NCBI GenBank assembly: GCA_902592655.1
Contig: CACJFE010000006.1
Location: 19,686-83,685 of the forward strand
Reading direction: 5' to 3'
Source: an uncultured Pelagibacteraceae bacterium
GTDB lineage: Bacteria; Pseudomonadota; Alphaproteobacteria; Pelagibacterales; Pelagibacteraceae
Length of the DNA stretch: 64,000 nucleotides
The position numbers and the translations under genes are program-made. The notes under the pieces were generated by a model. It saw only the letters and a program-made list of their open reading frames with translations. It did not search any database and was not told where the DNA came from. Each line of letters begins with the position of its first letter. Position 1 is the stretch's first letter. Positions 61,122 through 61,610 of this stretch are shown here, piece by piece.

Positions 61122-61138
61122 TTTAGAATCATTATAAA
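61122..61138. promoter_or_regulatory. Candidate Irr/ICE-like operator upstream of irr (irr-fabA divergent region)
   Basis: TTTAGAATCATTATAAA imperfect 8-1-8 dyad; near-identical copy upstream of katG. Confidence 0.6.
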
Positions 61139-61163
61139 GTAGACTAAAAAAACTTAATAAAAC

Positions 61164-61571
61164 GTGAAAAAAATAGACATTTTAAAAAAATTAAGATCAT
61201 CTAGGTTAAGGCCGACTAAACAGCGAGTTGAAATAGCTAAATTTTTATTCGAAAGAGAAAAAACGTTTCATTTTACAGTTGAAAGTTTAAACAAACTTTT
61301 AATAAAAAAATTAGCTTCTAAAATTGCACTAGCTACAATTTACAATACAGTTCATGCATTTAAAACAGCCGGGCATTTAAGCGAAGTTGAAGTGAGAGGA
61401 AATAAAACTTATTTCGATACCAATGTTTCAAACCATCATCATTTTTATGATAGTGAAAATGCAGAATTAATAGACATTGATGCAAATGATATAGTCATTC
61501 AAAAAATTCCAAAAGCACCAAATGGTAAAAAAATTAAGAATGTTGAGGTATTTATAAATTTGAAAAATTGA
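61164..61571 (+). CDS. irr: Irr-type Fur-family iron response regulator
   Basis: LRPTKQRVEIAKFLF, TIYNTVHAFKTAGHLSEV, NHHHFYDSE; GTG start; divergent from fabAB-fabI as in many alphaproteobacteria. Confidence 0.88.
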   Translation: MKKIDILKKLRSSRLRPTKQRVEIAKFLFEREKTFHFTVESLNKLLIKKLASKIALATIYNTVHAFKTAGHLSEVEVRGNKTYFDTNVSNHHHFYDSENAELIDIDANDIVIQKIPKAPNGKKIKNVEVFINLKN

Positions 61572-61593
61572 CAGTTTGTCGCTTGTTTTTCAC

Positions 61594-61610
61594 TTTAGAA
61601 TAATTATAAA
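61594..61610. promoter_or_regulatory. Candidate Irr/ICE-like operator upstream of katG
   Basis: TTTAGAATAATTATAAA, 16/17 identical to the irr upstream element; 8 nt before katG ATG. Confidence 0.6.

Follow-up and report, generated by a model that had tools for sequence, protein, structure and literature searches.

The two 17-bp dyads that flank irr in a Pelagibacteraceae (SAR11) genome are most probably operators for the Irr regulator encoded between them, which would act on its own gene (perhaps also on fabA) and on katG, in an old slot where a rubrerythrin gene (rbr) was replaced by katG. SAR11 bacteria rank among the ocean's most numerous cells, and the question of which cells carry katG is central to ideas of shared peroxide defence in plankton. 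The candidate operators are concrete sites through which iron or heme supply may be linked to peroxide removal. The exchange in the slot is of the either/or kind, at one locus and with one regulator: a catalase-peroxidase that uses heme, or a small rubrerythrin of the diiron type. This is also a clear case of an operator outlasting the gene under its control.

The window, i.e. the whole 64-kb stretch of DNA that was analysed, contains fabA, box 1, irr, box 2 and katG in this order, with fabA pointing away from the rest. The fabA gene (60568..61071, minus strand, start at 61071) is the divergent neighbour of irr and is followed by fabB and fabI. The same neighbourhood of fabA and irr recurs throughout SAR11 and in some of the class sample. 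The irr gene (61164..61571, plus strand) starts with GTG and encodes a Fur-family regulator, Irr/IrrA, of 135 aa with no cysteine. The katG gene (61619..63790, plus strand) encodes a catalase-peroxidase HPI of 723 aa, with its ATG 8 nt past box 2.

Box 1, TTTAGAATCATTATAAA at 61122-61138 (plus strand), is followed by GTAGA and lies in the divergent fabA-irr intergenic region. Box 2, TTTAGAATAATTATAAA at 61594-61610 (plus strand), is followed by CTAGA and lies upstream of katG. The original prediction of two 17-bp sites that differ by one base, each followed by TAGA after a G or a C, was confirmed in full. The published Irr-box (ICE) consensus, as given in that prediction, is TTTAGAA-N3-TTCTAAA. 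Both boxes match TTTAGAANNNTTCTAAA at 13 of 14 positions and the two halves can pair at 7 of 8 positions, in agreement with the claim of imperfect inverted repeats that resemble this type of box. The shared mismatch is a C to A change at position 13, which turns the right half into TATAAA; the TATAAA predicted inside each site is indeed there, and through this change the operator and the likely -10 coincide. In box 1 it is found at 61133-61138, toward irr, and the same box read on the minus strand gives TATAAT, facing fabA. In box 2, TATAAA is at 61605-61610 and is the likely -10 of katG. No further site of at least 13/14 is present within the 64-kb window. Under a first-order Markov model, a 13/14 site would arise by chance with a probability of 0.0006-0.001 in the fabA-irr gap of 92 bp, and of 0.00008-0.0005 in the irr-katG gap of 47 bp.

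As for the rest of the katG promoter, a possible -35 of weak consensus, TTGTTT (61583..61588, plus strand), can be read in the sequence 16 nt from TATAAA. The katG promoters of close relatives likewise lack a correctly spaced canonical TTGAC(A/T), which distant ones have. The -10 TATAAA ends 8 nt before the ATG (61605-61619), as it does in 45 of the 83 related loci with a scored box, so that katG may be transcribed leaderless.

The regulator is best described by the model NF045678 (IrrA), with 146.6 bits in a profile search, 3 bits under the cut-off of 150. This score exceeds that of the other Irr model by 16 bits and that of PerR by 85 bits. No PerR cut-off is passed by the protein (best 61.3 bits of 200), and its Irr score is far above any PerR or Fur model. 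The HHH motif is present as NHHHF at 90-94. The recognition helix is LATIYNT at 56-62, and its core positions (A-T-x-Y-N-T) are common to Irr proteins across the class in our alignment. The N-terminal Cys-Pro heme regulatory motif of the Bradyrhizobium type is found in no SAR11 Irr and is missing from 29 of 30 Irr proteins of the class, hence it does not define the Irr family. KatG passes its family cut-offs, with 1021 bits for TIGR00198 (cut-off 770) and 1025.6 bits for NF011635.

Conservation was followed in two samples, one of 80 Pelagibacteraceae loci fetched with irr and another, order-wide, of 148 genomes. Among the former, box 2 is found at 13/14 in 71 of the 72 loci with katG. A box also precedes katG in L027. 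Order-wide, a box of at least 12/14 is present in 61 of 62 irr-adjacent katG loci, with the remaining one at 11/14. Of the 79 Pelagibacteraceae irr promoters for which upstream sequence is available, 78 carry box 1, at 12-13/14. Absence of the motif from orthologous promoters, which had been named as an argument against the prediction, is thus the opposite of what is seen. The box also precedes a second KatG type, only about 55% identical to the one in the window. Across 43 distinct contexts of this type, no variation is seen at 10 or more of the 14 defined positions of the box and the others reach 86-98%, with base 8 at the centre and most of the flanking sequence being variable. The TTTAGAA half, upstream of the -10, is equally invariant to the -10 itself. 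In some loci the box is flipped (L088, L126, L130 and L185) or is a 14/14 palindrome (L195-L200), and in other lineages the dyad is sometimes upstream of the -35. The second argument foreseen, a promoter core with no conservation of the dyad, fails here, as the dyad is kept in both the flipped and palindromic forms. One locus with irr, L074, carries a katG of another subtype behind a decayed box (10-11/14), a possible recent loss of Irr control.

The presence of the box follows that of Irr. Eight genomes have katG but no detectable irr (G001, G007, G009, G051, G130, G073, G032 and G069), and none of these eight has a box above 10/14 before katG. Half of them (G001, G007, G009 and G130) are single-contig assemblies with 99-100% completeness. 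In G069 (L321), fabA and katG are 85 bp apart, and both irr and box were lost from the ancestral position. In G027 (L113), irr and katG are on different contigs, yet a 12/14 box precedes katG. The apparent absence of irr in G110, G124 and G125 is an artefact of contig ends at katG and these were left out of the irr-less set, along with G072 (katG near the contig start), G046 and G128 (partial katG). On the KatG tree these cases come down to just 3-4 independent losses of irr; each goes in the direction expected, but they are too few for a significant sign test. Because they are kept in orthologous promoters, are absent without Irr and preserve the dyad when flipped, the assignment of the two sites as candidate operators of the Irr-box (ICE) class is supported.

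The slot after irr is occupied by one of two enzymes. Where katG is missing, a 138-aa rubrerythrin (rbr, Pfam PF02915) directly follows irr, likewise with Irr boxes, which is a new observation of this analysis. The rbr boxes are often in the opposite orientation (TTTATAATCATTCTAAA), and those of family f2 are palindromes, up to 14/14. Of the 148 genomes, 84 have katG and 55 have rbr, and the two are found together in none, with 31 expected if kinship is ignored. On the Irr tree there are approximately 6 changes between rbr and katG, and well-supported branches require the rbr label to change at least 5 times. Furthermore, rbr follows irr in 25 of 30 other alphaproteobacterial families, with an intervening box of at least 12/14 in 12 of them. 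This spread across Alphaproteobacteria points to irr-box-rbr as the ancestral unit and to katG as the replacement. From the sequences, katG appears to have replaced rbr several times in SAR11, behind an older Irr operator that was kept or re-made. In G129 the slot is empty, and two boxes remain before the next gene. Two boxes 29-33 bp apart flank the -35 in some g3 rbr and katG promoters and in g1 rbr promoters; these shared pairs suggest that the gene was swapped behind a regulatory region that stayed in place. In the f2 genome G004 (L164/L355), a Pelagibacteraceae-type irr-katG pair with no fabA beside it looks like a cassette transfer, or a misplaced contig.

The box before irr has another history. 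It is in none of the 15 f2 loci examined (L186-L200) and is missing from most of the class sample. Six Pelagibacteraceae loci (L102, L104, L106, L117, L120 and L121) also have no box before irr, with the katG box kept in all six. The box before irr is therefore a derived feature of Pelagibacteraceae, and the putative autoregulation by Irr is recent. Regarding the prediction that Irr autoregulates and controls katG, this is still the best reading of the conserved candidate operators, but the self-site turns out to be derived. Given the TATAAT that faces fabA, box 1 may serve both divergent genes.

Pattern scans in 22 genomes were used to look for further boxes. The motif had been expected upstream of irr, katG and heme or iron genes; it does recur upstream of irr and katG in relatives, but no third target was found among heme or iron genes in these 22 genomes. 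Elsewhere in complete genomes, most exact or near-exact boxes are non-recurrent and lie within genes. The sole recurrent extra site is 66-82 nt before a TRAP solute-binding gene, at 12-13/14 in seven g1 genomes; several g3 genomes have a weaker version. This site is missing from the four irr-less genomes tested. In the window's own genome it is an Irr-box-like sequence of 13/14 on contig C10 (L005:1316-1332). The TRAP gene is a possible further Irr target, and only a lead. Little of the Irr regulon seems to lie outside the irr locus.

In the mechanism that we propose, the binding of Irr, the repression and the signal are inferred, and the boxes, their conservation, their absence from genomes that lack Irr and the exchange of enzymes are read from sequence. 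Irr would act on its own gene, and perhaps on fabA, through box 1, and on katG through box 2. Since box 2 covers the -10 region, bound Irr would most likely keep RNA polymerase off. The Irr proteins that have been studied in other organisms are responsive to heme and iron. By analogy with them, SAR11 Irr would lose DNA binding on heme binding or oxidation, and katG would then be made. KatG, a heme enzyme, would thus be produced only with heme available or peroxide rising. In “Ca. P. ubique” under iron limitation, the mRNA of rbr (SAR11_0399), the only equivalent target with published expression data, goes up 1.57-fold, and the irr and fur transcripts tracked stationary phase (PMC2864753). This rise at low iron makes plain Irr repression at low iron doubtful; live alternatives are that oxidative stress lifts the repression or that the upstream box serves for activation.

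Other explanations of the boxes differ in how much of this they change. One would be a mere sigma-70 promoter core that both genes share, with TATAAA as -10 and a T/A-rich spacer, kept by like expression. TATAAA is inside both sites, and in katG promoters of the g3 type a TTGACA precedes it by about 15-17 nt, but the equal invariance of TTTAGAA outside the -10 and the rarity of exact box matches elsewhere in the genomes are at odds with this. We consider it very improbable, and as the only explanation it is rejected on account of the flipped and palindromic boxes and of genomes in which Irr and box are both missing. It is also improbable, to a lesser degree, that the boxes serve another Fur-family protein (Fur or Mur), or some unrelated regulator, with Irr as a mere neighbour. 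SAR11 genomes do have further Fur-family proteins, seen as weaker second profile matches and with Fur named in PMC2864753. Against it, the boxes track Irr, including the unlinked katG of G027, and the site sequence is of the Irr type. That box 1 is mainly for fabA and not for irr is unlikely as well. The minus-strand TATAAT facing fabA and the constancy of fabA as neighbour of irr would fit, but family f2 has the fabA-irr neighbourhood without the box, and in most loci the TATAAA of box 1 is at promoter distance from irr.

A more serious contender, though on balance doubtful, accepts that Irr binds the boxes. Irr would do so mainly as a locus-dedicated sensor of peroxide (PerR-like) or heme, or would activate from boxes upstream of the -35. 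The occupant of the slot is always a peroxide scavenger, katG or rbr, and exact box matches hardly occur outside the irr locus. The box just upstream of TTGACA in rbr promoters would suit activation, but a Fur-family dimer at this place could still repress. A peroxide or heme sensor has to be set against Irr elsewhere answering to heme and iron, and against a low PerR-type score, even though HHH is retained. The increase of rbr under iron limitation is in its favour (PMC2864753). Our preferred reading remains that of operators for Irr at its own gene and at katG. A wider scenario, for which we give somewhat less than even chances, has SAR11 Irr, once global, as a local peroxide-defence switch that would sense peroxide or heme instead of plain iron starvation, with an operator outliving the swapped enzymes (rbr and KatG types A and B).

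Among known systems, the Irr-box (ICE) one is similar in its TTTAGAA-N3-TTCTAAA dyad, its regulator family and its targets, peroxide-handling iron proteins. The binding sites of R. sphaeroides Irr include boxes at mbfA, whose product is rubrerythrin-like, and at ccpA, a gene for a heme cytochrome c peroxidase, and rhizobial Irr likewise binds such boxes at peroxide-handling iron proteins (PMC3413700). The difference is that here the putative target is katG with the box superimposed on the -10, irr itself carries a box, and the boxes are nearly limited to the irr locus, whereas the known system is a global iron regulon. The alphaproteobacterial irr-rubrerythrin pair has the same succession of irr, Irr box and peroxide-reducing iron enzyme, with katG in place of rbr in the window's genus and in many Pelagibacteraceae. 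PerR control of katA/katG elsewhere also has an autoregulated Fur-family regulator adjoining and controlling a catalase gene, but SAR11 has an Irr-type protein and an Irr-type box, with no PerR-level score. Finally, OxyR control of katE in Rhodobacter shares the role in peroxide defence; the promoter of katE is not bound by R. sphaeroides Irr (PMC3413700), which speaks against our preferred reading. OxyR was rejected as katG regulator, as no OxyR passes the family cut-off in a profile search of 21 relatives.

Two minor observations concern neighbouring genes. In G001, from an irr-less genus, katG is downstream of an FTR1-like iron permease gene, which is preceded by the 17-bp palindrome TTAAGAATAATTCTTAA (L320:5306-5322). 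Lastly, the start of the gene after katG in the window (63792-64000) resembles that of the gene past the empty slot of G129 (L315:398-1009), hydroxylase-like by eye, and the sequence common to both marks the far edge of the exchangeable slot.
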